From positions 1-27,951 of the IMG/VR virus record IMGVR_UViG_3300030419_006268: 27,951 bases of DNA. One strand, given 5' to 3'. Below the pieces are notes generated by a model, which saw only the letters and a list, made by a program, of their open reading frames with translations, had not been told where the DNA came from and made no database searches. Position 1 is the first letter of the stretch. Each line of letters starts with the position of its first letter. The position numbers were made by a program, and so were the translations under genes. Source of the DNA: a virus. This document shows positions 6,057-27,951 of the stretch, piece after piece.

Positions 6057-6122
6057 GATTCAAGTGCTGGCAACATTGACCCTATAGGGGATTCAAGTGC
6101 TGGCAACATTGACCCTATAGGG
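6057..6122. repeat. perfect 33-bp tandem duplication
   Basis: Positions 6057-6089 and 6090-6122 are identical. Each unit ends in the palindrome CCCTATAGGG. The stop codon of the gene at 6115-6294 falls inside the second palindrome, and the first unit sits about 20 nt upstream of the ribosome-binding site of the next gene. No divergence between units suggests a recent event or selection. Confidence 0.9.
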
Positions 6123-10252: not shown

Positions 10253-11248
10253 ATGAAAAAAGCTATCATTTTTGGAATAACAGGACAGGACGGTAGCCAT
10301 CTGGCGGATTTGCTGCTTGGGAAGGACTACAAAGTAGTCGGAGTATGCAGGAGATCTAGCACAGAGAATACCAGTAGAATCAAGCACATTCTGAATAACC
10401 CGAATCTCCAACTCTCTCAAGGTGATTTAACAGATGCGCATTCGATAAATAGTATTCTTAAAGAACACGCCGATGTAGATGAAATCTACAACTTAGCCGC
10501 TCAGAGCCATGTAGCTGTATCCTTTAAGCAGCCCGCTTTAACTTGGGATATTACGGGTAAGGGATGCCTAAACATTCTTCAATCAATCATTGATAATGAA
10601 ATGGTCAACGTGAGGTTTTACCAAGCTAGCAGCAGTGAGATGTTTGGCAAGAACTACGATACAGACAGAGAACAAAACAAATACCAGAGCGAAGAGACCA
10701 AATTTTTACCACAAAGCCCATATGCGATAGCTAAATGCGCCGCTCATTATATAACAAGACTTTTTAGAGAAGGATATGGCTTGCACGCAAGTTCCGGAAT
10801 CCTATTTAACCACGAAGGTCCGAGAAGAGGCGAGACTTTTGTCACAAGAAAGATAACGAAGTGGATCGGAGATTTTGTTAAGAGTGGTAAGTCAGATAGT
10901 TTTCCAAAATTAAGATTAGGAAATTTAGAAGCCTTTAGAGATTGGGGGTATGCGGGAGATTACGTAGAAGCCATGTGGATGATGCTCCAGCAAGATGTCC
11001 CAGAAGATTATGTTATATGTACCGGGGATACACACACTATTAGAGAGTTTCTAGACGTAGCGTTCAAACACATAGGTGTTGAAGACTGGTCTAATCATGT
11101 TGTCCAAGATCCCGAGTTTTATAGGCCAGCAGAAGTAGACTACTTACGCGGCGATTGCTCGAAAGCAAATGGTAAGCTAGGATGGACTCCAAAACACAGC
11201 TTTGAAGATCTCGTAAAAATGATGGTGGAACACGACTGTGAGACATGA
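10253..11248 (+). CDS. gmd: GDP-mannose 4,6-dehydratase
   Basis: A 331-residue extended short-chain dehydrogenase. The NADP-binding GITGQDG motif lies at 8-14 and VCRRSS at 31-36. The catalytic Ser/Glu segment SSSEMFG is at 126-132 and YAIAK (Tyr157, Lys161) at 157-161. LFNHEGPRRGETFVTRKI and RDWGYAGDYVEAMW are hallmark segments of this enzyme. It converts GDP-mannose to GDP-4-keto-6-deoxymannose, the precursor of GDP-fucose, rhamnose or perosamine. It is slightly shorter than typical bacterial forms. The start has GAGGA 5 nt upstream; the stop overlaps the next start (ATGA). Phages use such enzymes to modify virion or host glycans; which applies here is unknown. No fucose synthase lies next to it. 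Confidence 0.93.
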   Translation: MKKAIIFGITGQDGSHLADLLLGKDYKVVGVCRRSSTENTSRIKHILNNPNLQLSQGDLTDAHSINSILKEHADVDEIYNLAAQSHVAVSFKQPALTWDITGKGCLNILQSIIDNEMVNVRFYQASSSEMFGKNYDTDREQNKYQSEETKFLPQSPYAIAKCAAHYITRLFREGYGLHASSGILFNHEGPRRGETFVTRKITKWIGDFVKSGKSDSFPKLRLGNLEAFRDWGYAGDYVEAMWMMLQQDVPEDYVICTGDTHTIREFLDVAFKHIGVEDWSNHVVQDPEFYRPAEVDYLRGDCSKANGKLGWTPKHSFEDLVKMMVEHDCET

Positions 11249-12910: not shown

Positions 12911-13369
12911 ATGTATGAGGCTTTAATCTGGTTAACGACATGGTATCTTGTAATGGCATTTGCCGAATACTTTATCCACAGATACACAATGCACAAGAGG
13001 ACGTTCTTACCCGAATGGATATGGAGAAACCACGCGATTGATCACCATAGGGATGGCAGAAATGACTTAAATGTTGACCTACCGTTTTACATGCATCTCA
13101 CAATAGGGTCACCTTTAATAGCTACAACTTATTTTTACTTTGGCTTGATAGCTACACTATGCCTGTTGTTCACATTTTTTTACCATTCATACATCTGGAC
13201 ACACATGCACAGGGCTATACACGACCTTGAAGATCACTGGATAACAAAGACTAAATATTACCAAAGAGCAAAGAGACACCACTTACTCCATCATAGAAGA
13301 CCCGCCAGCAATTTTGGAGTGGTTTTCCTGTGGACTGATTACATTTTTAACACTAAAAACAAAATATGA
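12911..13369 (+). CDS. fatty acid hydroxylase/sterol desaturase-like membrane di-iron oxygenase
   Basis: A 152-residue membrane protein with the histidine boxes of the family: HRYTMH (23-28), NHAIDHH (40-46), HMHRAIH (98-104) and RHHLLHH (122-128). Hydrophobic spans lie at about 3-20 and 62-96. Eight or more histidines of this spacing bind a di-iron centre in fatty acid hydroxylases, carotene hydroxylases and sterol desaturases; beta-carotene hydroxylase-like proteins are also this short. The substrate cannot be told from sequence. It sits between the ClpP-like gene and the large terminase, overlapping the latter by 4 nt, so it is co-expressed with packaging genes. Such an enzyme is unusual in a phage and suggests alteration of host membrane lipid or pigment late in infection. 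Confidence 0.85.
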   Translation: MYEALIWLTTWYLVMAFAEYFIHRYTMHKRTFLPEWIWRNHAIDHHRDGRNDLNVDLPFYMHLTIGSPLIATTYFYFGLIATLCLLFTFFYHSYIWTHMHRAIHDLEDHWITKTKYYQRAKRHHLLHHRRPASNFGVVFLWTDYIFNTKNKI

Positions 13370-15342
13370 GCGAACTAAGAAAAATAGACGAAGCTTGGCT
13401 AAAGCTAGACGACCTAAATGAGTCTGAGCTTATTAACCCGTTTGACATTGTGAACTTTAACGATGACAACGTTCAGTATAAAATCCTTTGGCTTATGACT
13501 AGACCGGAATACTTCTCTTTCCTATGTAAACATGTCTTCAACATAAATTTGTTACCTTCACAGGCATTATTCCTGTGCGAGTTATGGAATAGGAAGTTCC
13601 CTATGCTTATAGCCAGTCGTGGTTTTGGCAAGTCTTTTATCCTATCTTTATATGCTATGATAAGAGCGTTAATATTACCAGAAAGAAAAGTGGTGATTGT
13701 CGGTGCGGCGTTCAGACAATCTAAAGTTCTTTTTGAGTACATGGAAACAATTTGGAACAACGCCCCAATTTTAAGGAGTATGTGTGATGGAAGTAGTGGG
13801 CCGAGACGTGACGTTGACCGTTGCGTCATGCGTATTAATAAATCTCGTGTCACTTGCCTTCCTCTGGGGGACGGACAGAAAATTAGAGGCCAGCGTGCTA
13901 ACGACATTATCTCTGATGAATTTGCTAGCATCCCGAGGGACATTTTTGAAACTGTGGTTGCAGGTTTTGCGGCGGTTAGTTCTGATCCCATCGAAAATGT
14001 TAAAAAGTTAGCAGCCAAAAAGAAGGCTAAGGAGCTAGGGATAGAGCTAGAGGAAAATAACGACAACGTACTAGAAAAGAAGAACAACCAGATTATTCTT
14101 AGTGGAACTGCGTACTATGATTTCAATCATTTTGCTGAGTACTGGAAAAAATGGAAGTCTATAATCAAAAGCCAAGGAAAACAAAGCAGGTTGCGAGAAA
14201 TATTTGGCGACGACCCCCCAAAGGACTTCAACTGGAAAGACTACTCTATCATCAGAGTTCCCTACGAACTCCTACCAGAGGGCTTCATGGACGCCTCACA
14301 GGTCGCCAGATCCAAAGCTACGGTACACGCTGGTATATATCAAATGGAATTTGGAGCGTGCTTTACACGGGACTCTCAGGGCTTCTTCAAGCGTACTCTG
14401 ATAGAGAGCTGCGTTACAAGTGAAGAAGGAAACCTCAAGGATTCAAACGATAGAGACATATGCTTTCAGGCACAGTTAAGAGGAGATCCGAATAAACAGT
14501 ATATATTTGGTGTTGACCCAGCTTCTGAGGTTGATAACTTTAGTATCGTTGTCCTAGAAGTCAATCCCGACCATAGACGTATAGTACATTGCTGGACAAC
14601 TAACCGTGAGCAGCATAAGGAAAAAGTTAAGAGCGGATTCTCTAGTGAAACAGACTTTTATGCTTACTGTGCTAGAAAGATTAGAGACCTGATGAGATTA
14701 TTTCCATGTATACATATATCTATGGATGCCGGGGGTGGTGGAATAGCTGTAATGGAGTCACTTCATGATAAAGACAAAATACAGGAAGATGAATTTGCTA
14801 TTTGGCCAGTTATTGATGAGGACAAAGAAAAAGACACTGATGACCAGAGAGGTTTACACATTCTAGAAATGTGCCAATTTTCAAAGTATGATTGGTTAGC
14901 TGAGGCGAATCATGGCCTAAGAAAAGACTTTGAAGACAAAGTAGTTCTATTTCCCATGTTTGACACAATAAGCTTAGGTATAGCCAATGCAGAAGATGGT
15001 CTCAAAGGTAGAACTTATGACACCTTAGAACAATGTGTAATGGAAATAGAAGACCTCAAAGATGAACTAACCATGATTCAAATAACTCAAACAGCGAGTG
15101 GAAGAGATAAGTGGGACACACCAGAAACCGTTATAGGTACCGGAAAGAAGGGGAAACTAAGAAAAGACCGTTACTCCTCCTTAATTATGGCTAATATGGC
15201 AGCTAGAACACTAGCAAGAATGCCTACACCCGCCGAGTACAACTTCTACGGAGGTTTCGCCACCATAGAAAAAACTGAGAAAGAAGGAGACCTGTACTCC
15301 GGACCTAACTGGTTTACAGATAATACGCAAAATTTATATTAA
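13366..15342 (+). CDS. terL: terminase large subunit
   Basis: A 658-residue packaging motor. The ATPase domain has the Walker A motif ASRGFGKS (83-90), an R-rich QKIRGQRAND segment, Walker B IISDE (181-185) and the coupling-type SGTAYY motif (246-251). The RNase H-like nuclease domain has FGVDPAS (Asp384) and HISMDAGGGG (Asp454) plus a late KDRYSSLIMANMA segment that carries a third acidic position. It cuts the replicated concatemer and pumps DNA into the prohead through the portal encoded next. The length is at the long end for the family. The start overlaps the hydroxylase gene by 4 nt. Confidence 0.93.
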   Translation: MSELRKIDEAWLKLDDLNESELINPFDIVNFNDDNVQYKILWLMTRPEYFSFLCKHVFNINLLPSQALFLCELWNRKFPMLIASRGFGKSFILSLYAMIRALILPERKVVIVGAAFRQSKVLFEYMETIWNNAPILRSMCDGSSGPRRDVDRCVMRINKSRVTCLPLGDGQKIRGQRANDIISDEFASIPRDIFETVVAGFAAVSSDPIENVKKLAAKKKAKELGIELEENNDNVLEKKNNQIILSGTAYYDFNHFAEYWKKWKSIIKSQGKQSRLREIFGDDPPKDFNWKDYSIIRVPYELLPEGFMDASQVARSKATVHAGIYQMEFGACFTRDSQGFFKRTLIESCVTSEEGNLKDSNDRDICFQAQLRGDPNKQYIFGVDPASEVDNFSIVVLEVNPDHRRIVHCWTTNREQHKEKVKSGFSSETDFYAYCARKIRDLMRLFPCIHISMDAGGGGIAVMESLHDKDKIQEDEFAIWPVIDEDKEKDTDDQRGLHILEMCQFSKYDWLAEANHGLRKDFEDKVVLFPMFDTISLGIANAEDGLKGRTYDTLEQCVMEIEDLKDELTMIQITQTASGRDKWDTPETVIGTGKKGKLRKDRYSSLIMANMAARTLARMPTPAEYNFYGGFATIEKTEKEGDLYSGPNWFTDNTQNLY

Positions 15343-15403: not shown

Positions 15404-17419
15404 ATGTCAGAAGAAAAAAAAGAAGACCCATTTATAACGTGGAATGACTCAGATCAGGGCAGCAAAGCCCGAGCCTTTGACAACTTCTCAGACGCCCTAG
15501 ATTCTTACGACGGCATATCCAAAGGGTATCATAGAGACTTTCTAGACATTGAGCCAAATAGGTCAGTAAGACCACAGTTTGGAGCGAGTGACTATTATGC
15601 GTTTAGACCTGAAGAGGCCACACCAAGAAAACAGAAGAAGGCTATAAAACTATGCATGGACGCCTACGAAAAGGTTGGAATTGTCCGTAACGTGATAGAC
15701 CTAATGGGTGACTTTGGGTGCCAAGGTATAGACATAGTGCATGAGAGCAAGAGCGTAGAGAAATTCTTTAAGCAGTGGTTTAAAAAGGTTCAGGGTAAGG
15801 AGAGGTCGGAAAGATTTCTAAATAATCTCTACAAAACCGGTCAAGTTTTCGTATACAGAAGTACGGCTCACATAACGCCAGAAATCAAAAAGTACATGAG
15901 ATCTATGGCTCATGATATCAGGATTGATGTTCCAGTTACAGAGAGCAATGTAGTACCGTGGAGGTACAATTTCTTTAATCCTCTCAACCTTGATATAAAA
16001 GACGGTAATATCAGCATGTTTTTGGGGAGAAAGAACTACGAGCTAACTGCAAACTCGTTTTTTGACAACTTCAAAGACGGGGCGGTTCCAGCAAAGATTA
16101 TGGACACCCTGCCACCAAATGTAAAAACCGCAATAAAATCAGGCAAAAAGAAAATAGAACTAGATGAAGATAGACTCTCTATTTTCTATTACAAGAAAGA
16201 CGATTGGCAGCAATGGGCTTATCCCTTAACCTATGCGATCTTAGACGACATAATCATGCTTGAGAAAATGAAGCTAGCAGACCTGTCTGCTTTAGATGGT
16301 GCAATATCAAACATCAGACTGTGGACTATCGGTAGCTTAGATCACAAAATTCTCCCGAACAAAGCTGTTATCAATAAGCTGCGAAACATACTTGCTAGCA
16401 ATGTGGGCGGCGGTACAATGGAACTAGTTTGGGGTCCAGAGCTATCTTACACGGAATCAAATAGCCAAGTCTATAAGTTCCTAGGCTCTGAAAAGTATCA
16501 ATCTGTACTTAACAGTATATATGCAGGACTCGGTGTTCCTCCCACCTTAACCGGTATTGCCGGACAAAGCGGTGGCTTCACCAATAACTTTATATCCCTA
16601 AAAACACTGGTAGAAAGATTGCAATATGGCAGGGATCAGCTAACGAAATTCTGGCAGGCGGAAATGGAGATCATTAGAAAGTCTATGGGCTTCAGGAAAC
16701 CTGCGCATGTAGTGTATGACCAAATGAGCTTATCTGACGAAGCCTCAGAAAAGAACTTATTGATTCAACTTGCTGATAGAGATATCATTTCTCACGAGAC
16801 CGTTCTTGAAAGATTTAAGGAAATCCCAGCAGTTGAAAAGGTTAGGCTCAAAAGAGAGGACAAAGACAGGGATGCAGAGAGAATACCTCCTAAAGCAAGC
16901 CCCTTCCACAATGCCAATCATGACAAAGAGATTGAAAAGATCCAAAAACAGGGTGACGTAAACAGAAAAAATCAAGAGCAGAAGGAAACACAAAAGCCCT
17001 CTAACGACAATGGCAGACCACCCTTCGCTCCAGACGAAGGACCAAGAAAGAAGAGAGTCGATACCCCAAGGTCTAAACCGGGAGTTGCAGAGCTGTTCAT
17101 CTGGACATCCGACGCGTTAGATAAGATCTCTGAAATTTCTACAGCTTTCCTTGAGGTTAAGGGTAAAAGCAATATGAGACAGTTAACAAAGGCCGAATTT
17201 AAAGAGCTGGAGGAGTTAAAACTGTCTATTCTTACAAACCTAAAACCAATGCAGGACGTTAGCGATGCCGCTATCCACAAGATACTTTCCAATAACATGC
17301 AAACTCCTAGGGAGTTCAAGAAAATATTAGCATCAAAAAATGTATCAATAGAGAAGATGGCGGTCGAGGCTTATAAAAAACACATAATTAGCCTGTTTGC
17401 GGACTTCTGCCTTACTTAA
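15404..17419 (+). CDS. portal protein
   Basis: A 671-residue protein between the large terminase and the prohead protease/scaffold, the usual place of the portal. YEKVGIVRNVIDLMGDFGCQ (about 87-106) is the early stem-like segment. GLGVPPTLTGIAGQSGGFTN (about 376-395) is the conserved loop before the long helix SLKTLVERLQYGRDQLTKFW. DQMSLSDEASEKNLL is also typical. The C-terminal 170 residues, with a charged EKIQKQGDVNRKNQEQKETQ linker and then a helical module, are extra to the core. It forms the dodecameric DNA channel. The start has only a weak AGGA far upstream. Confidence 0.88.
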   Translation: MSEEKKEDPFITWNDSDQGSKARAFDNFSDALDSYDGISKGYHRDFLDIEPNRSVRPQFGASDYYAFRPEEATPRKQKKAIKLCMDAYEKVGIVRNVIDLMGDFGCQGIDIVHESKSVEKFFKQWFKKVQGKERSERFLNNLYKTGQVFVYRSTAHITPEIKKYMRSMAHDIRIDVPVTESNVVPWRYNFFNPLNLDIKDGNISMFLGRKNYELTANSFFDNFKDGAVPAKIMDTLPPNVKTAIKSGKKKIELDEDRLSIFYYKKDDWQQWAYPLTYAILDDIIMLEKMKLADLSALDGAISNIRLWTIGSLDHKILPNKAVINKLRNILASNVGGGTMELVWGPELSYTESNSQVYKFLGSEKYQSVLNSIYAGLGVPPTLTGIAGQSGGFTNNFISLKTLVERLQYGRDQLTKFWQAEMEIIRKSMGFRKPAHVVYDQMSLSDEASEKNLLIQLADRDIISHETVLERFKEIPAVEKVRLKREDKDRDAERIPPKASPFHNANHDKEIEKIQKQGDVNRKNQEQKETQKPSNDNGRPPFAPDEGPRKKRVDTPRSKPGVAELFIWTSDALDKISEISTAFLEVKGKSNMRQLTKAEFKELEELKLSILTNLKPMQDVSDAAIHKILSNNMQTPREFKKILASKNVSIEKMAVEAYKKHIISLFADFCLT

Positions 17420-18972: not shown

Positions 18973-19485
18973 ATGGCTCTTAAAGCAGATAGATATGAAG
19001 AATCAACAGATATCAGCTTTTTCTACAATGCTGGAACTGCCACTCGCGGCGGCGTTGTTGTTCTAGCTGACCAAGGTCAGGCTTCTGGTGCAGCACTGGA
19101 TCAGGGCGAAAACCTCGTAGAGTATAAGAAGGCAACCGGCGCATCCATCGCCGTTGGAGTTCTTCTTAACGACGTTGTCAATAAAGACCTTACTAGAACT
19201 CATCTTAACCAATACAAAGATGAAGTTCAAAAGGGCGGAAAAGTTACTGTTATGACTCGTGGTTGGGTTGTGACAAGCAATATTGACGGAACACCTAAAG
19301 CTGGAGACATTGCTTATGCCTCTAATGAGAATGTATCAGCACATATAGCTGGCAATATTACGCCGACTGTTATTCCGAACGGATCTGGTAATTTGGCTAT
19401 TGGCCGATTTATGTCCCGTAAGGATGCAGACGGATATGCCAAAGTGTATATCAACCTTCCGTTGGCCGCCAATTCCATTAACTAA
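18973..19485 (+). CDS. probable capsid decoration/stabilisation protein
   Basis: A 170-residue protein starting MALKADRYEESTDISFFYNA behind AGGAG. It is glycine- and valine-rich, with segments such as TRGGVVVLADQGQASG, GASIAVGVLLNDVVNK, GGKVTVMTRGWVVTSN, PKAGDIAYAS and AIGRFMSRKDADGYAKVYIN. These match the small beta-rich proteins (DUF2190 type) that sit between scaffold and major capsid genes. It probably trims or cements the capsid surface, like lambda gpD in role and not in sequence. The position between scaffold and capsid genes supports this. Confidence 0.8.
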   Translation: MALKADRYEESTDISFFYNAGTATRGGVVVLADQGQASGAALDQGENLVEYKKATGASIAVGVLLNDVVNKDLTRTHLNQYKDEVQKGGKVTVMTRGWVVTSNIDGTPKAGDIAYASNENVSAHIAGNITPTVIPNGSGNLAIGRFMSRKDADGYAKVYINLPLAANSIN

Positions 19486-19511: not shown

Positions 19512-20525
19512 ATGTCACTTACAGAAAGACCTAGTGATGAATTCATTTCATTGCTTAAAAAATCGGGCGACAGCGATCAAAACGTCGCATACGCCGCTCA
19601 GAGAGAGTTTGCTAAGGCGCTTGAATTACCTTTGCGTAAAGGTGTTCTTGTCGGAAATATTCTTGGCGATATCTTTGAAACTATTAATGTCGAGCCGGGA
19701 GCCTCTACTGAGTATCCTCTCGATCTGATTTCTCCCGGACTTGAAGGTGAGCATGTAGCTTACACCAATCCGGGTCATGGTCGCGTACCTGAAAGAGCGG
19801 TAGAGAGCGACTATGTCATGATCCCGACTTACAGCATCACAAGTAGCATCGACTACTTACTTCGTTATGCTCGTGAAGCTCGTTGGGATATTGTTGGTCG
19901 CGCTATGCAGGTGCTTGAAGCTGGATTCGTTAAAAAGATGAACGATGACGGCTGGCACACGCTGCTTGCAGCAGGCGTTGACCGAAACATTTTGGTGTAC
20001 GATGGCGATGCCACGGCTGGAATGTTTAGCAAGCGATTGGTTTCCTTGATGCAGACTGTTATGCGACGAAATGCGGGCGGTAACACTGGATCAGCTAATC
20101 GCGGTCGTCTTACTGACCTCTACGTCTCTCCAGAGGCTCTTGAGGACGTAAGAAACTGGGGACTTGACCAGATTGACGAAGTAACTCGTCGAGAGATCTA
20201 CACTGCCAGCGAAGGTGGTGCTCCCATCACGCGTATCTTTGGCGTGAACTTGCATGATCTCGATGAACTTGGTGAAGGTCAAGAATACCAGACTTTCTTC
20301 TCAGCATCAGATGGCCTTGGAGGTTCTTTGCAATCTTCAGACGTTGAACTGGTTGTTGGTCTTGATCAAGGCGCTAATGATAGCTTTATCATGCCAATGA
20401 AGCAGCAAGTAGAAATCTTTGAAGATCCTACGCTTCATCGTCAACAAAGAGCTGGTTACTATGGTTTCGCTGAACTTGGATTTGGCGTACTCGATAATAG
20501 ACGGGTCATTCTTGGCTCCTTCTAG
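19512..20525 (+). CDS. major capsid protein
   Basis: A 337-residue protein starting MSLTERPSDEFISLLKKSGD behind AAGGAG. It follows the scaffold and decoration genes and is followed by a strong terminator, the usual place for the capsid gene. It has a helical N-terminus, a central YPLDLISPGLEGEHVAYTNP region, LEAGFVKKMNDDGWHTLLAA (spine-helix-like) and TDLYVSPEALEDVRNW, which recurs in HK97-fold capsids. The C-terminus IFEDPTLHRQQRAGYYGFAE then LGFGVLDNRRVILG is also typical. The pronounced shift to GC-richer codons compared with its neighbours suggests high expression. Confidence 0.88.
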   Translation: MSLTERPSDEFISLLKKSGDSDQNVAYAAQREFAKALELPLRKGVLVGNILGDIFETINVEPGASTEYPLDLISPGLEGEHVAYTNPGHGRVPERAVESDYVMIPTYSITSSIDYLLRYAREARWDIVGRAMQVLEAGFVKKMNDDGWHTLLAAGVDRNILVYDGDATAGMFSKRLVSLMQTVMRRNAGGNTGSANRGRLTDLYVSPEALEDVRNWGLDQIDEVTRREIYTASEGGAPITRIFGVNLHDLDELGEGQEYQTFFSASDGLGGSLQSSDVELVVGLDQGANDSFIMPMKQQVEIFEDPTLHRQQRAGYYGFAELGFGVLDNRRVILGSF

Positions 20526-20650: not shown

Positions 20651-21169
20651 ATGGCAGCTTTATCAGATTACTTAGAATCTGGACTTTTACACCACATTTT
20701 TAGAGGGCAAAGTTTTCCAAAACCAGAAAATATTGCTATTGCCCTAACTAGCGGTGTGCCAAGTGATGCAAACACCGGAGTTTCACACTATCAGATGGGT
20801 GGGGCTTATGACGCAAGCCTACTACCAGAACTCCCCTCTGGAGACGCAAATGGCAACGATACTGGTTACAGACGACTAAGCCTTGGTAAACCACTCACTG
20901 CTGGAAATGGTATTTGGACATATCATGAAGATGACCATGAAGCAGGCAGCGGGTTAATAAAAAATACTGATTCTTTATTGTTTGACGCTGGAGATGGTGC
21001 TCCAGCACTCGTTGACTGGGGATGGGTTTCAGGTATTGCAATCGTTGATTCTGGCGAATATGGTACCGGAAATCTACTTATGCACGCCCAATTAGACAAC
21101 CCCCGTGTTATATATACTGGAGATACTGTAAAGTTTGACTTATCAACTTTACAAATTAGCTTTAAATAA
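20651..21169 (+). CDS. phage tail fibre-type structural protein
   Basis: A 172-residue protein starting MAALSDYLESGLLHHIFRGQ. The opening (LS.YLES.LL.HIFR followed by FPKPENIAIALTSGVPSD) matches a small structural family commonly annotated as tail fibre protein in marine and other tailed phages. It is beta-rich, ending in VKFDLSTLQISFK. ATG is at 20651 behind an AGGAG 8 nt upstream. It starts the tail/fibre unit behind terminator and box L4. Confidence 0.75.
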   Translation: MAALSDYLESGLLHHIFRGQSFPKPENIAIALTSGVPSDANTGVSHYQMGGAYDASLLPELPSGDANGNDTGYRRLSLGKPLTAGNGIWTYHEDDHEAGSGLIKNTDSLLFDAGDGAPALVDWGWVSGIAIVDSGEYGTGNLLMHAQLDNPRVIYTGDTVKFDLSTLQISFK

Positions 21170-21189: not shown

Positions 21190-22845
21190 ATGACTATTCT
21201 ATCTAAGTCTGAGTATATAGCAAAAATAAATGGTTTATTACCAGACAACTCTACTCAACAAATCTCACCAGAAGATTTAAGAGAAAGTCTTGTTGATTTA
21301 ATAGACTCTGTTCATCTATTCTTAGATGGAAACGAAATTATAAGTGCCAATTTCGCCTCTCCTGATTTCAGGACGACGAGGGGTGGGGACTGGGCTTTAG
21401 GTAAAATGTCGCTTGCTAATAGGCTAAGTATTGATAATACGGCCTATGGCTATTATGCACTTGGGGCTAACTATGTAAGTAGCGGAAATACCGCTATTGG
21501 CTCTTACGCGCTTGGCTGTAACCTACAGGGTACACACAATGTAGCCGTTGGCTATAACGCGGTAGCTGGAAATGTTAATGGCTCAGGCAATGTGGGGATA
21601 GGGAACTTTTCCCTGATGACCAATAAGCATGGCGATTTTAACATAGCCATAGGTCACGGGGCTGCCTTCTATGCATCAGGAAATGAGAATAATAAGTTTT
21701 TCTTAGGCTCTTATCCGGGTTTTGATCAAGATCACACATGTGACATTGAGCTTTCTGGTAACAAAAACCCTCTTCTGTATGGAGAGCTAGATAATTTAAG
21801 ACTTGGGGTTGCAGTTCCTTCAACGCACGCTGATGGAGGAACATTGCAGGTCTCTGGTGACATTACTCCCCTCTGGAGCGGGGTGAACAATATTGGAACG
21901 TCTAAATATTCTTGGGGTTCTATAAACGAGGTTGTTCACTTCTCTGGCGGGGAGAATGGCCCTTTTGTTGGCATAAATACCGTAAGTCCTTCTGGAGCAC
22001 AAGGTATCATGACCGTTCAGGGTCATGTTGTTCCAGTAGAAGACAGCATATACTCTTTAGGTCATAGAGAACTGAAGTGGGACGGGTGGTTTAACGACGT
22101 TGTAATTAGCGGACAGCTACACGCAAACGATGTTAATTATAATCATATAAATGAATGCCTGTATGATTGTAAGACCCTACACTTAGCAACCAGTGGATTC
22201 TGCAATAATGATGACTTAGGTTTTCATAATGACGCTATATGCGGATATCTTAGTGATGAAGCTATCGACGGTGGCGGTTTTGAGATACACTCTAGCGGAT
22301 CTGACTATCAGAGAGATTACAAGTTTCTATTTAAGTTTCCTGACTCCACGATAAAGTCCTGCGCCTTAGAAGTGGATGACCACTACTCCAGAGCTAGATG
22401 GCAGTCAAATATTTCTCTAGAAGTTGTATCAGGAAGGCATGTACAAACGGAAAGAGTGTTAGGGCCGAGAGACAAATTGTCCCTAGTAACTCATAGTGGC
22501 TGCTTTGGCATTGGCATAAGAACAGACTTCCTTGATTCAGGCAACCATCTAGGTTTTGGATCAATGGAAATTATAGACAGTGGCTATTGCAATAAAGACA
22601 TTGACTTCCTATCGCCTTCAGGTGATTATTTACTGACAGACGGGAATCCTAGCGGACACGACCTTTCTGTCCTCTTTGGTAGCGTAGATTCCGGGGTACA
22701 GATCTCTAATCAATTCGCCTCTAGGATAAAAAGCTGCAATACTTTACGAGGCTTTAGCTGGGTTTACCATGACGAGATAGATAAGCTGGCCTCCAATTGT
22801 GATGATAGCAATTCAGCCTTAGCCTCTATTCCATTACCCGGATAA
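21190..22845 (+). CDS. tail fibre protein with YadA-like head repeats
   Basis: A 551-residue protein. Residues 83-159 contain five repeats with an exact 17-residue period beginning NTAYGYYAL (83), NTAIGSYAL (100), NVAVGYNAV (117), NVGIGNFSL (134) and NIAIGHGAA (151). This is the left-handed beta-roll repeat of trimeric adhesins and many phage fibres. The N-terminal 60 residues, with SPEDLRESLVDLIDSV, could attach to the virion. The later part is beta-rich with repeated SG-rich turns. It probably forms a trimeric fibre and may recognise the host surface. It has AAAGG about 9 nt upstream of the start. Confidence 0.82.
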   Translation: MTILSKSEYIAKINGLLPDNSTQQISPEDLRESLVDLIDSVHLFLDGNEIISANFASPDFRTTRGGDWALGKMSLANRLSIDNTAYGYYALGANYVSSGNTAIGSYALGCNLQGTHNVAVGYNAVAGNVNGSGNVGIGNFSLMTNKHGDFNIAIGHGAAFYASGNENNKFFLGSYPGFDQDHTCDIELSGNKNPLLYGELDNLRLGVAVPSTHADGGTLQVSGDITPLWSGVNNIGTSKYSWGSINEVVHFSGGENGPFVGINTVSPSGAQGIMTVQGHVVPVEDSIYSLGHRELKWDGWFNDVVISGQLHANDVNYNHINECLYDCKTLHLATSGFCNNDDLGFHNDAICGYLSDEAIDGGGFEIHSSGSDYQRDYKFLFKFPDSTIKSCALEVDDHYSRARWQSNISLEVVSGRHVQTERVLGPRDKLSLVTHSGCFGIGIRTDFLDSGNHLGFGSMEIIDSGYCNKDIDFLSPSGDYLLTDGNPSGHDLSVLFGSVDSGVQISNQFASRIKSCNTLRGFSWVYHDEIDKLASNCDDSNSALASIPLPG

Positions 22846-22865: not shown

Positions 22866-25502
22866 ATGAAAGATAGATTTTCACTACATGTACACGATGG
22901 GCAGAGCGAGATACTCGAAGCCCTGACCGTTATGAGAAATGGGTTTACCAGATCGCAATCCGGTCTGGTTGGGGTGACCAACGTTACTCATGCGGAAGAC
23001 GAGCAGCCCACACTGCCAGAAACGATATTTAACGTTCAGACTACCGGTGACTCTACCGTGAGATTTGCTAGCGTTTCTAGCTCAAACAGTGTTCTACAGT
23101 TATTAGGTAACGGAAACACGAGAGCTTCAGGTCTTGAAATATCCTATTCTCCATCAAATGATTATATAAATTTTTCTCACTTGAGGCCTAGCGGGTGTGC
23201 CGGTATAGAATCTGGCTTCATGGTAGTCACACCAAATAACTTTGTGGGAATCGGTACGACTAAATTTAAAAATTCTTACAAGTTTACACCAAATTCCCCG
23301 CTTACCATCTGGCATAGCGGAACTACTAATAGCGGAACGATAGCTTTAAAAGAACAGCAAACCTCTCCTGAAGGTACCTCCAGCTTTGGTAAAATCTTTG
23401 TTAAACCAGACATCGGCTGCTCCAACCGCCAAAGCTTCTTTTTCTTAGATGATCAAGGCAACGAGTTTAATCTTTCCCATCCTACCGGAATGGTCCAAGC
23501 GGATTCCGAGAGGTTGAACACTTACGCCGGTTATCAAGCCCCTTTTTCAGAATGGTTGTGCGAAGAAAATCCTTCACTGAAGTGTAATACCACGTATGGC
23601 CATGCGGCTGGATGGTATCTAACCACCGGAGACAATAACACCCTAATTGGATGTAAGGCTGGTAGTGGCGTAACACTCGGAGAAAAGAACGTAGTTGTAG
23701 GCGCAAACAACCTTACCCACCGCAATACATCGAACTGCGTGATTATAGGTACGAACCTGATTTCCCCAGACGACGTAACAGAAGACCATCAAGGTGAATA
23801 CTTTTCCAACAATATTCTCATAGGTCAAGATATAGAGTTCGACACCTTAAATAATAGTCATGCATTACTGATAGGGTTTGGCGATGACCCCGTAATTCAG
23901 GGTGGCCTTGGTGGAGATCAAAATAGATTCCTTGCAGTAAAATCAATTGCGGGCCACGAAGCGTTTTTAGCGGTTAATGACGCTAATAATTCTTTTGCGA
24001 CAAAGATAACAGAAAAAGAAGAGACTACAACCGTAGGGACCACCAATGTAGGACAGTTTCTGTTTAGTGATAATACTTCTGCCCTACAACATAAGGGCAT
24101 GGCATCCCTTAGATTTGAAAATAGATTTGCTCACAAACAAACGCTCGTTGACTTTGTTCCTAGCGGCAATGTCCCGACTACATCTCCGTCTTGGTATCTA
24201 CCAACCTACGACACTCCATATATAGCAGTAAGTGGAGACATAAGAGTTCTAGGAGCTATCAGGTTTGCTAACGGTACAGTTTTAGAGTCAGCTCAAGACT
24301 TCCAAATAGAAGCAACATCTGGCGTTGGAAAGAGAACCTCCGCAACCACATCTTCTTTTATACTTGATTTTGATGAGCTTTCTATGGCTCATTCTTTAAC
24401 TCCAAGTATAGATACTACTGCTAGTTACTTTGCGTTAGAGGTTCCTTCTGGTAGCAGTAGGTTTGTAGGTAAGTTTAGCTTAGACTCTATTGCACAACAC
24501 ATAACAAGTGGTTATGCCAGTGTCGCAAATAATTGCAATCTTATATTTGCAGATGCGGGCTCAGAAGTTGAAATTGATTCCGTAAATAACTCCGGCATGG
24601 TATTCATTGGTTGTGGCGTAGGCGTTAATTCTACCGGTTGGAAAAATGGTATCTTCTTAGGGCCAGAAGCGGGTGTCAATAGCGTTACCCCAAATACCAA
24701 TCTCGCAACAGATACGTCTCCGGTATTTATTGGTTATAGAGCAGGTTATGATTCTGACAGCTTAGAGAACACTATCGCCATTGGTAGCAACGCAGGTAAA
24801 AACGCAGACGCCTCTTCAGACTCTATATTTATAGGCTCTAATGCCGGTTTAAATGCTTCTGGAAATAGAAATTGTATAGGTATAGGTGAGTTTGCACTGG
24901 ATGGCGAGGAGACTCCGGGACATGATTCTCTATACGGAAATAACAACATAGAGATTGTTACCGGCCTAAGAAGCAATCAAAGACTGTTCTACGCAAGTGG
25001 AAATGTAAATTCACGAATTAATATACAAAATGTGATCGCGGGAAATCACGGAAGAAGGATGATTTCCATAGGCGATGGCAGACTATCTCCGCAAGCCCCT
25101 CTTGAAGTAAGAAGAGATGTAGGATTAACTGGACATGCTGACACCGATAATATCCAAGCTTGGCAAAATAACGATGTTACGGTCAGTAGAGTAGACGCTT
25201 CCGGTGACTACATAAGAAGAGACGAGCAGGGGTCAGACGCTTGGTTTGGTCAGTATGAAGGCTTTATGGTTGACTATATTTATGCTCCGGATTCTTATAC
25301 AACGCCCAAGAGTGGCGTCATGAGGACAAGGACATATAAAAATGGGTTTGCTGCGGACAAGCTCATATGGGTAACAAATAGAGACACAAAACTAAACATT
25401 CATGGGGAAGGAGCTACGGGTGGAGCAGCATTTGTTGTAACTAACAGGGTAAATGGAGAAAACAGGCCTATTTATGTAAGCTGCTCTGGCGATGGATCTT
25501 AG
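22866..25502 (+). CDS. large tail fibre/adhesin protein
   Basis: An 878-residue protein with the same kind of beta-roll repeats as the preceding fibre: a first block around residues 255-330 (NTLIGCKAGSG, NVVVGANNL, NCVIIGTNL) and a second block around 570-690 (SGMVFIGCGVG, SPVFIGYRAGYDS, NTIAIGSNAGKNA, DSIFIGSNAGLNA, NCIGIGEFALDG). Between and after them are SG- and NN-rich beta segments. The N-terminus MKDRFSLHVHDGQSEILEAL may be a docking region. It is likely a second trimeric fibre or a baseplate-bound adhesin. ATG lies 9 nt behind AAAAGG. Confidence 0.8.
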   Translation: MKDRFSLHVHDGQSEILEALTVMRNGFTRSQSGLVGVTNVTHAEDEQPTLPETIFNVQTTGDSTVRFASVSSSNSVLQLLGNGNTRASGLEISYSPSNDYINFSHLRPSGCAGIESGFMVVTPNNFVGIGTTKFKNSYKFTPNSPLTIWHSGTTNSGTIALKEQQTSPEGTSSFGKIFVKPDIGCSNRQSFFFLDDQGNEFNLSHPTGMVQADSERLNTYAGYQAPFSEWLCEENPSLKCNTTYGHAAGWYLTTGDNNTLIGCKAGSGVTLGEKNVVVGANNLTHRNTSNCVIIGTNLISPDDVTEDHQGEYFSNNILIGQDIEFDTLNNSHALLIGFGDDPVIQGGLGGDQNRFLAVKSIAGHEAFLAVNDANNSFATKITEKEETTTVGTTNVGQFLFSDNTSALQHKGMASLRFENRFAHKQTLVDFVPSGNVPTTSPSWYLPTYDTPYIAVSGDIRVLGAIRFANGTVLESAQDFQIEATSGVGKRTSATTSSFILDFDELSMAHSLTPSIDTTASYFALEVPSGSSRFVGKFSLDSIAQHITSGYASVANNCNLIFADAGSEVEIDSVNNSGMVFIGCGVGVNSTGWKNGIFLGPEAGVNSVTPNTNLATDTSPVFIGYRAGYDSDSLENTIAIGSNAGKNADASSDSIFIGSNAGLNASGNRNCIGIGEFALDGEETPGHDSLYGNNNIEIVTGLRSNQRLFYASGNVNSRINIQNVIAGNHGRRMISIGDGRLSPQAPLEVRRDVGLTGHADTDNIQAWQNNDVTVSRVDASGDYIRRDEQGSDAWFGQYEGFMVDYIYAPDSYTTPKSGVMRTRTYKNGFAADKLIWVTNRDTKLNIHGEGATGGAAFVVTNRVNGENRPIYVSCSGDGS

Positions 25503-25512
25503 GAGGCCGTAA

Positions 25513-27951
25513 ATGACTATATGCTGTCAGTGTGATGGTGTCACACCTCCACCAGAGGTGACCGGAGCCTGCTGTTATGATGACGGCGGGGTTTCATTGG
25601 CCTGTGTAGATTCCGTATCAGCGGGCGATTGTTTATCCAGACCTAACTCTACTTTCTTTCCTAATAAAACATGTTCTCAGGTTTCCTGTGTGGATGGAAT
25701 AGATTCCATTTGCTGTCTTTACAAAAACCCAACAACTGGGGTGGAAACCAAATTGGGCTGTATACCAGACGATGGCGATCCGGATCAAAGAATAGCAGAT
25801 TGTATTGACGCTGGTCACTCTACTACTAATCTTGTAAGAGTTTTTACAAATGAAGCCACCTGTGATAGTAGCTGCCTAACCACGACCAGCACAACGCCCG
25901 CCCCTCCTGAAGGGAGATGCTGCGAATGTCACAAAGGTATGGAGCCGGGGGATGAGACTTACACCTGCACAAATGGCATGACAGAGCAAGATTGTCTCAA
26001 CTTGGGCTCGACGTTACTGGGAGGTCAAAGTTGCACTCATCTATGGAAAGAAGGAGCAACTTGTGCCAGTGATCCATGTCCCACCCCTCCGTCTCCGACA
26101 GAAGGCTGCTGTATTGATCAAGAGTGCAGTGATCTTGATAAACAGACTTGTTTAGATCTTGGAGGTATACCTTTAGGCAAGTCTTGCTCGGAAGCTGGTG
26201 AAGGTGCTTGTATTGACCCAACCACCACTACTACTACCACAACAACCACCACAACGACCACGACCACAGAAGCTCCATGCCCGAGCTGTAGAACGTGGCC
26301 AGAGTGCTCTAGCGCTGATGGATGTGCGTCCACCGGTGGCTGCGTAAAGGTTGAGACAGCGGGTCAGAAAATCTCTTGTTGTAGCGATATTGGTGGCGTG
26401 ATAGAAGTTACGTGCAATTTACAATCTGGTCCCGGCTGCTGCTGTTGCTGTCCAGAATTCTTTGAACCCTGTACTACAACGGCGAACCCCTGTGATAGTA
26501 GATGTAGCCTCTCCTGTGGCGCACACTGGGATGGCGAATACAGATGGGTACATCCTATAGATGGTTATATCTGCCCCGGAGAATGTCCATGCGAAGTAGT
26601 AATTGAGGGTGTAACATACCGCCATATGGATTTGTGTGACCCATTCGACGAATCAACTCCCGACGGTTTGCACAGCGGCTTCTGCGGAGGAGATGGAGGT
26701 CCGGATGGAACGACCACCTCCGCGCCGACCACCACAACGGTTTGTCCTGATTGCTTTGATCCCACGTCGGGAGCAGAATGTTCGTCAGATGAACTGTGTG
26801 GTTCTATCACTTGCTGTGGCGCTGGTGGCTCTGAAGCAATCTACGAATGCCCAAGACCGGGAGGTGGCGGATGTTGCTGTTCTTGCCCCGATGGGGAGCA
26901 GCCCAAACACACAATGCCAGACGGAATATGCATGGGCTCGGACGGAGGTCCGGATGGCGGTGGCGGCATGGGCGGCGGTGATGGCGGCATGGGCGGCGGT
27001 GATGGCGGCATGGGCGGCGGCGATCACTCGATAGCAGCCTGCGTTCCTTGCAATTGCCCAAAGTCAGTAAATGTAAAATTTGACATAAATGTACTTGGAA
27101 ATTGCGATTATGATATTAACTTTGACGAGACCACTTCGCTTAAAAATGGAGCGTGTTGCTTAATAGACTTGTTTGACGGCAGCACTGACAACTGTTCTTC
27201 AAAAGCGGCTGAGGAATGCGATACCAGCGGCTATACAGACGGAGACCAGTACAAGAGATTCTTCCGTAGCGGAAAAGGTTGTGGTGAAGGCTGTGGACCG
27301 GCATGGGACGCGGAGCATCAAAACGATTGCGAATATGGTGAAATTGTTCATTATTATAGAGTATCAAAGGACATGAGCTATTGTGCACCATTTAATGATG
27401 GACAGGAGCAAGAACAGGTCATGGCCGATATAACCTGCGATTCCTCAAAAGCAGCTAATGATCCAGATCGTTGGTCAATAAATATAATGACTGATCACGG
27501 GAATTTCAACGAAGACTCTGCGAATAACCCAGATGCTGCCGGTACTTGTGACGCGCCACCCCACTGGACTTTTGATTTAGATGGGTTCAACACCAGCGCC
27601 GGTTGTTGCAAAGAGGGTAATACTCATGGAGCTTGCTGTAGATCATGGATTGTCCCCGACATGCAGGACGGTCTTGATTTTATGGAGCACACCCAAGGTA
27701 ACGAGTGGATTCCTAACAACTTCCGCCCGTTCTTTAAACGTTATCGTAAATTTACATGTGACTATGTTGGTAAAGCAGTTTGTGACAACTACTGCGGAGA
27801 TGAAGGCGAGGATCAGTGCGGGTTCATTACTGAATTTACCGCTGGCCAGAAATGTGAACAGACAGACTGTGGAGGTACCTGCTGCCATTGTAATCAGTCG
27901 ATCTTCACGGAATTAGGAGACTGTGGAGCGGGTTATAAATATTACATCGGG
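25513..27951 (+). CDS. giant cysteine-rich, Thr/Gly-repeat protein, partial (continues past window)
   Basis: The start at 25513 is behind AGGAGG with 6 nt spacing, and the frame stays open for 813 codons to the window end. The protein is packed with cysteine, often paired or in runs (MTICCQCDG, TGACCYDDGG, EGCCIDQECSD, GPGCCCCCPEF, GGGCCCSCPDG, NGACCLIDL). Small modules opening with (G)ACC or CC recur about every 60-100 residues. They are joined by Pro/Thr linkers, including 16 threonines in a row (237-252), and by three GGMGGGD repeats (about 484-504). No enzyme motif is visible. By position it is a virion surface or fibre protein, probably stabilised by disulphides or metal. I know no named family for it. 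Confidence 0.82.
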   Translation, partial: MTICCQCDGVTPPPEVTGACCYDDGGVSLACVDSVSAGDCLSRPNSTFFPNKTCSQVSCVDGIDSICCLYKNPTTGVETKLGCIPDDGDPDQRIADCIDAGHSTTNLVRVFTNEATCDSSCLTTTSTTPAPPEGRCCECHKGMEPGDETYTCTNGMTEQDCLNLGSTLLGGQSCTHLWKEGATCASDPCPTPPSPTEGCCIDQECSDLDKQTCLDLGGIPLGKSCSEAGEGACIDPTTTTTTTTTTTTTTTTEAPCPSCRTWPECSSADGCASTGGCVKVETAGQKISCCSDIGGVIEVTCNLQSGPGCCCCCPEFFEPCTTTANPCDSRCSLSCGAHWDGEYRWVHPIDGYICPGECPCEVVIEGVTYRHMDLCDPFDESTPDGLHSGFCGGDGGPDGTTTSAPTTTTVCPDCFDPTSGAECSSDELCGSITCCGAGGSEAIYECPRPGGGGCCCSCPDGEQPKHTMPDGICMGSDGGPDGGGGMGGGDGGMGGGDGGMGGGDHSIAACVPCNCPKSVNVKFDINVLGNCDYDINFDETTSLKNGACCLIDLFDGSTDNCSSKAAEECDTSGYTDGDQYKRFFRSGKGCGEGCGPAWDAEHQNDCEYGEIVHYYRVSKDMSYCAPFNDGQEQEQVMADITCDSSKAANDPDRWSINIMTDHGNFNEDSANNPDAAGTCDAPPHWTFDLDGFNTSAGCCKEGNTHGACCRSWIVPDMQDGLDFMEHTQGNEWIPNNFRPFFKRYRKFTCDYVGKAVCDNYCGDEGEDQCGFITEFTAGQKCEQTDCGGTCCHCNQSIFTELGDCGAGYKYYIG
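26221..26268 (+). repeat. 16-codon threonine run
   Basis: Sixteen consecutive ACN codons with mixed third positions encode a poly-threonine linker inside the cysteine-rich protein. The mixed codons indicate selection on the protein and argue against simple nucleotide slippage. Confidence 0.9.
26962..27024 (+). repeat. three 21-bp tandem repeats encoding GGMGGGD
   Basis: Units at 26962-26982, 26983-27003 and 27004-27024 differ by a single third-position change. They encode three GGMGGGD blocks in a flexible linker. Confidence 0.92.

Follow-up and report, generated by a model that had tools for sequence, protein, structure and literature searches.

A cysteine-rich, threonine-tethered mosaic protein in a variable slot beside the fibre genes of uncultured phages

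Phage adhesins are known mostly as rigid, beta-rich fibres. Marine phages carry metaviromic islands with variable receptor-binding or accessory tail-fibre genes, of C1q, lectin, carbohydrate-binding and YadA types (Mizuno et al. 2014, PMC3909814). The gene described here shares with these island genes a tail-fibre neighbour, a conserved N-terminus with a variable remainder, rapid divergence and adhesion-type domains; none of the island types, however, combines a Cys/Thr mosaic with an associated glycosyltransferase (PMC3909814). Phage-encoded glycosylation of the virion has been described for mycobacteriophages such as Che8 (Freeman et al. 2023, cited in PMC11256854). Phage-borne glycosyltransferases are thought to decorate virion proteins there, as we propose for our protein; the acceptor in the Che8 type is the capsid protein, whereas the enzyme of our phages is paired with a Thr/Cys-rich protein and its activity is predicted. 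Eukaryotic secreted mucins alternate Thr/Pro tethers with Cys-rich domains, and in our protein Thr/Ser/Pro-rich linkers likewise alternate with Cys-rich domains, but it has no Pfam match to mucin domains and no signal-like N-terminus.

The window, which is the whole stretch of DNA analysed (27,951 nucleotides of IMG/VR record IMGVR_UViG_3300030419_006268), derives from an uncultured, probably marine tailed phage. Its virion genes lead up to the cysteine-rich gene as follows.

13366-15342: terminase
15404-17419: weak portal-like match
18973-19485: virion protein
19512-20525, + strand: putative major capsid protein, 337 aa, our anchor for finding related phages
20651-21169, + strand: Gp80-like head/fibre protein (Pfam PF23140, E=1.4e-20; PHROG 240 "head protein", E=2.4e-8)
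21190-22845, + strand: fibre-like protein 1 with NTAIGYYAL repeats (PHROGs tail spike, E=3e-12; virion structural protein, E=2e-15)
22866-25502, + strand: fibre-like protein 2, directly upstream of the cysteine-rich gene (PHROG 4636 tail spike, E=2.4e-9)
25501-25506, + strand: Shine-Dalgarno AGGAGG, read from the sequence, overlapping the stop codon of fibre 2 and 10 bp 5' of the ATG
25513-27951, + strand: cysteine-rich mosaic protein, at least 813 aa, with its 3' end beyond the contig

The putative capsid protein has no family match in Pfam or PHROGs; we assign it from its size, its place among virion-protein genes and the 85-98% identity that it shows across the 80 relatives retained. The cysteine-rich frame starts with ATG and runs for 813 stop-free codons, still open at the contig end, while over the same stretch the other two plus frames hold 30 and 74 stops and the three minus frames 20, 31 and 34. 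The protein contains 91 cysteines (11.2% of 813 residues), gathered in CC, CCC and CCCCC clusters, much as the first-pass annotation had described it from the letters alone; thirteen other checked genes of the window have 0-2.0%. Homologues in independent contigs share both the start (MTxCCQCDGVTPPP) and the neighbouring genes, which confirms that the gene is real. A low-complexity translation or a misassembly would fit the fact that at least seven contigs besides the window (which ends at 27951) break inside this gene (L003, L008, L019, L032, L082, L085 and L104), a sign of hard assembly and probably the result of repeated modules defeating it. We give such an artefact next to no credence, given the long open frame and complete homologues of 300 to 1833 aa that have conserved ends and synteny and come from independent samples.

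Within the protein, we distinguish the following parts.

25513-25563, + strand: conserved N-terminus MTICCQCDGVTPPPEVT, a possible anchor (ten relatives aligned)
25564-25689, + strand: six-cysteine module M1 (GACC...C...C...C...C; 41 examples in relatives)
25690-25710, + strand: site corresponding to that of the Hint (intein-like) domain in relatives; no insertion in the window
25912-26079, + strand: M1-like module GRCC
26104-26211, + strand: short GCC...LGG module
26221-26268, + strand: 16-threonine linker (codons ACC x7, ACA x4, ACT x3, ACG x2)
26278-26472, + strand: module M2 ending CCCCCPEFFEPC (iterative HMM: eight copies in six proteins)
26491-26646, + strand: Cys module M4, by eye like the "W...C.CP.PP" modules of relatives
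26743-26901, + strand: second, divergent M2 copy (weak HMM match, E=0.014)
26962-27024, + strand: three GGMGGGD linker repeats, a 21-bp DNA tandem repeat with 97% match
27046-27609, + strand: predicted beta domain M3, interrupted in the window by a GACC insert (HMM E=1.2e-25)

The recurring ACC-type modules with Thr/Pro/Gly linkers, the threonine run and the GGMGGGD linkers had all been noticed at first pass, and the repeat detection suggested there now defines the modules: M1, M2 and M3 return in relatives, in differing orders. M2 closes with CCCCCPE, and M4 had no second copy in the HMM search. The mixed threonine codons had been taken as a mark of selection on the amino acids, and this stands for the 16-threonine run, which uses all four codons. 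The argument is valid for that run only, because the GGMGGGD units are a near-perfect 21-bp tandem repeat; this array is a recent DNA duplication, and selection on it was dropped as an explanation. M3 occurs in 20 copies in 14 proteins (HMM). The copy of relative L002 gave an AlphaFold2 (AF2) model with pLDDT 83.6 and pTM 0.78, for which a fold search of PDB and BFVD returned no match at E<=0.001; as modelled, M3 is a new beta domain without structural match.

The cysteine counts of complete proteins range from 15 to 126, yet parity is largely kept within sub-classes. Members with the MTxCC-type start and no Hint domain have an odd count in 5 of 6 cases, and MGRP-type Cys-rich members in 8 of 8; with the Hint domain removed, 7 of 8 Hint-bearing members (L084 counted by hand) have an even count, the exception being L141, and these carry one extra cysteine at the +1 position. 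The related pair L120/L125 (MTCCC start, even) is left out of this comparison. Such parity is suggestive of even-cysteine modules, whether disulphide or metal, that would be gained and lost whole. Even-numbered units compatible with metal sites, together with 11% cysteine and the CC and CCCCC clusters, are what a metallothionein-like or zinc-cluster protein acting in the infected cell might display, and metal binding was among the functions first offered. We find it very unlikely: metallothioneins are small single-domain cysteine proteins, whereas this one is large, modular and multi-domain, spans more than 813 residues with extended Thr/Gly linkers, lies in an adhesin-like slot and matches no metal-binding family.

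Relatives of the protein were reached through the capsid gene only. With the whole protein as query against viral contigs nothing was found, nor with fibre-like protein 2, and the conserved N-terminus returned 10 loci only. The capsid-anchored scan of viral contigs gave at least 600 matches, of which the best 80 loci were kept. The phage group carrying this capsid gene is abundant, as this number of matches indicates, yet it has no match in the cultured-phage collection searched. Against 298 Phycisphaerae genomes the capsid gene gave one weak match at 28% identity, and a look for psbA in 11 large contigs of relatives found none. About 40 relatives of the cysteine-rich protein occupy one and the same position, the slot, in contigs of uncultured phages; the usual order there is putative capsid, Gp80-like head/fibre protein, fibre 1, fibre 2, Cys-rich protein, family-2 glycosyltransferase and a large virion-like protein. 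The protein itself matches no family in Pfam (E<=1), PHROGs (E<=0.1) or NCBIfam (E<=1), so that no cysteine-rich family of these collections covers it end to end, and no credible PDB chain (one chance match, E=0.44). Its architecture had been called very unusual for a phage virion protein; it has no match in 50,697 phage genomes, but a family does exist in uncultured contigs.

The contents of the slot differ between relatives. One class is a Cys-rich mosaic with the start MTxCCQCDGVTPPPP, and other slot proteins have FG-GAP repeats, Thr runs of 24-32, or an N-terminal Cys module followed by RCC1-like repeats and dockerin. The RCC1-like type with a dockerin type I domain is seen at L127:3801-6998 and L131:4299-6992, and the FG-GAP type at L016:15933-20315, without an adjacent glycosyltransferase. 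At L141:1451-6949 a slot protein of 1833 aa has a matrixin (M10) protease domain (Pfam E=1.6e-11) in addition to its GACC modules and Hint domain. Compared with the nearest relative, L002, identity is 98% for the capsid, 84% for the head/fibre protein, 84% for fibre 1, 73% for fibre 2 and 45% for the cysteine-rich protein (alignment covering 84% of the shorter protein), which makes the last the least conserved of the five structural genes compared. The capsid is nearly constant between relatives while modules of the slot protein are gained, lost and replaced, and this is the pattern expected of an outermost, environment-facing part.

A Hint domain of 141-144 aa is present in L003, L005, L006, L009, L010, L017, L090, L100 and others, and absent from the 813 residues of the window protein. 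It usually follows the first M1 module without a gap, at a site left vacant in the window and in L002. The domain starts with CF, contains a (T/S).DHP block and ends in HN|C; Pfam Hint models recognise it below their curated cut-offs, and intein/HINT structures match it at E=1.5e-4 or weaker. Six relatives (L003, L005, L006, L009, L010 and L017) have the features of class 1 inteins, namely Cys1, a TxxH-type block B, a C-terminal HN and a Cys/Ser/Thr at +1, this last being Cys in 6 of 6. With class 1 inteins and bacterial intein-like (BIL) domains as the nearest known kinds, the relatives' domain has Cys1, the TxDHP-type block, the HN end and Cys+1, and it is without a homing endonuclease. BIL domains lack the +1 nucleophile (PMC4031507), and because Cys+1 is present the relatives' domain is separate from them.

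Modules of the GACC type are also abundant in Planctomycetota proteins. A degenerate GACC pattern picked out at least 118 stretches, most titled Phycisphaerae or Planctomycetota; the phage M1 HMM matched 48 of those proteins at E<1e-3, and 0 after shuffles preserving the cysteine positions, in a set pre-chosen with a similar pattern. Phage and planctomycetal modules likely share descent, a conclusion short of proof because the cellular proteins had been selected with a related pattern. Common to both is the six-cysteine layout GACC-C-C-C-C; in Phycisphaerae and other Planctomycetota the arrays are regular tandem repeats and lack M3, whereas the phage protein is a mosaic with M3. A search of 198 Phycisphaerae genomes, run without a positive control, returned no M3.

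The window ends before the position where relatives carry the glycosyltransferase. In the capsid-anchored set, a hand count of slots places an enzyme of Pfam PF00535 next to 6 of the 8 that are rich in cysteine and next to none of the 17 that are poor in it (Fisher p=1.6e-4 with relatedness ignored, and such p-values are optimistic because the contigs are partly redundant and related). A scan anchored on the enzyme gave 52 loci, in which the cysteine content of the adjacent slot protein is at least 4% in 35 of 46 cases; the remaining slot proteins carry a GxCC module, except L121 (Thr run plus M3 domain) and L128 (frameshifted fragment). In one clade (L047, L104-L115) the gene order is reversed with the linkage kept. 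PF00535 is matched by 34 of 34 enzymes, and their alignment has a D-C-H motif in which D100 and H102 are invariant and C101 is present in at least 90%. A DxH motif is known from polypeptide GalNAc-transferases, which is a lead at most. The nearest PDB entry to the profile is a different GT2 enzyme, weakly matched (E=0.02), structure prediction gave no usable model (pLDDT 49.5), and matches of the profile in Phycisphaerae cover the general GT2 N-terminal part only. Many of these enzymes (L088:13087-14253 and relatives) end in a Cys-Cys-Lys tail, e.g. KKCCKK.

It is possible, but to our judgement rather unlikely, that the slot protein is the same variable virion adhesin in unglycosylated form, its Thr runs serving as flexible tethers while the enzyme modifies a neighbouring fibre, a host surface glycan or something else. 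The enzyme also stands beside RCC1-type slot proteins with few threonines (L119, L123, L127, L133), so that we dropped the simple rule of an enzyme exactly where there are Thr runs, and the Thr-run slots L058 and L074 have no such enzyme within 51 and 73 kb. The enzyme's strong association with Cys-rich slots, which holds for both gene orders, speaks against it, as does the enzyme relative found elsewhere in the contigs (G008, G011) of the Thr-run phages L052 and L062, which have none adjacent. Those two genes (G008:C1:107110-107952 and G011:C1:13486-14325) lie far from the slot and lack about 65 central profile positions. The acceptor may be another protein or residue, since few-Thr slots of the RCC1 type have the enzyme and the Cys-rich slots L054 and L080 have none adjacent.

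We propose the following scheme for the slot protein, in which a glycosylated adhesin is assumed. The conserved Cys/Pro segment at the N-terminus would probably attach the protein to the virion, and the remainder is, by its sequence, a string of small Cys-braced domains (M1, the CCCCC module M2, and M3) spaced by Thr/Pro/Gly tethers. Before lysis, the family-2 glycosyltransferase most likely adds sugars to Thr residues, as its association in relatives suggests, and these sugars would stiffen and protect the tethers. In some relatives the intein-like Hint domain, whose residues are observed, may first splice itself out. Once the particle is released into oxidising water, disulphides would form, and the sugar-coated modules would help it adhere to particles, mucilage or glycans of the host surface. 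Because a Cys/Thr mosaic adjoins the fibre genes and its neighbour in relatives is nearly always a sugar-adding enzyme, the particles of this phage probably carry a sugar-coated adhesive that changes fast.

A surface fibre or adhesin was one of the functions first suggested, and it agrees with the mucin-like modular build, modules as in secreted-looking bacterial proteins, the place beside fibre genes in the structural block, and a conserved N-terminus with a variable remainder that diverges fastest, faster than the capsid. Location on the virion is suggested by synteny. Secretion from the infected cell was another suggestion; the product could be freed at lysis as a matrix protein, decoy or agglutinin acting outside the cell, in keeping with the likeness of its modules to secreted-looking Planctomycetota proteins and with the matrixin protease domain of one slot relative. 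We give this little weight, since the gene is embedded among structural genes, with fibre genes on one side and another virion-like gene on the other, its ribosome-binding site overlaps the fibre stop codon, and the MTxCC class shows no hydrophobic N-terminus that would stand out as signal-like. That the protein is an exposed, disulphide-braced, mucin-like and probably O-glycosylated accessory adhesin of the virion we consider an even call. Beyond the first-pass annotation, the sequences point to a protein family that is paired with its own glycosyltransferase next door and that in some members carries an intein-like domain. More tentatively, and with rather less confidence than in the adhesin itself, these may form a "virion mucin" system, a shuffling, disulphide-braced and Thr-tethered glycoprotein with its own polypeptide glycosyltransferase and sometimes an intein, giving an uncultured lineage an evolvable adhesive coat that includes at least one new fold, M3. 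If so, a Cys-braced, Thr-tethered mosaic with a glycosyltransferase would be a different route to an evolvable virion surface, and phage mucin-type glycosylation would become directly testable.

Elsewhere in the window, a GDP-mannose 4,6-dehydratase gene lies at 10253-11248 (Pfam E=4e-116) and is a possible source of a deoxy-sugar donor. Just before the terminase, at 12911-13369, lies a gene of the fatty acid hydroxylase family (Pfam E=1e-14), and positions 6057-6122 hold a perfect 33-bp tandem duplication.
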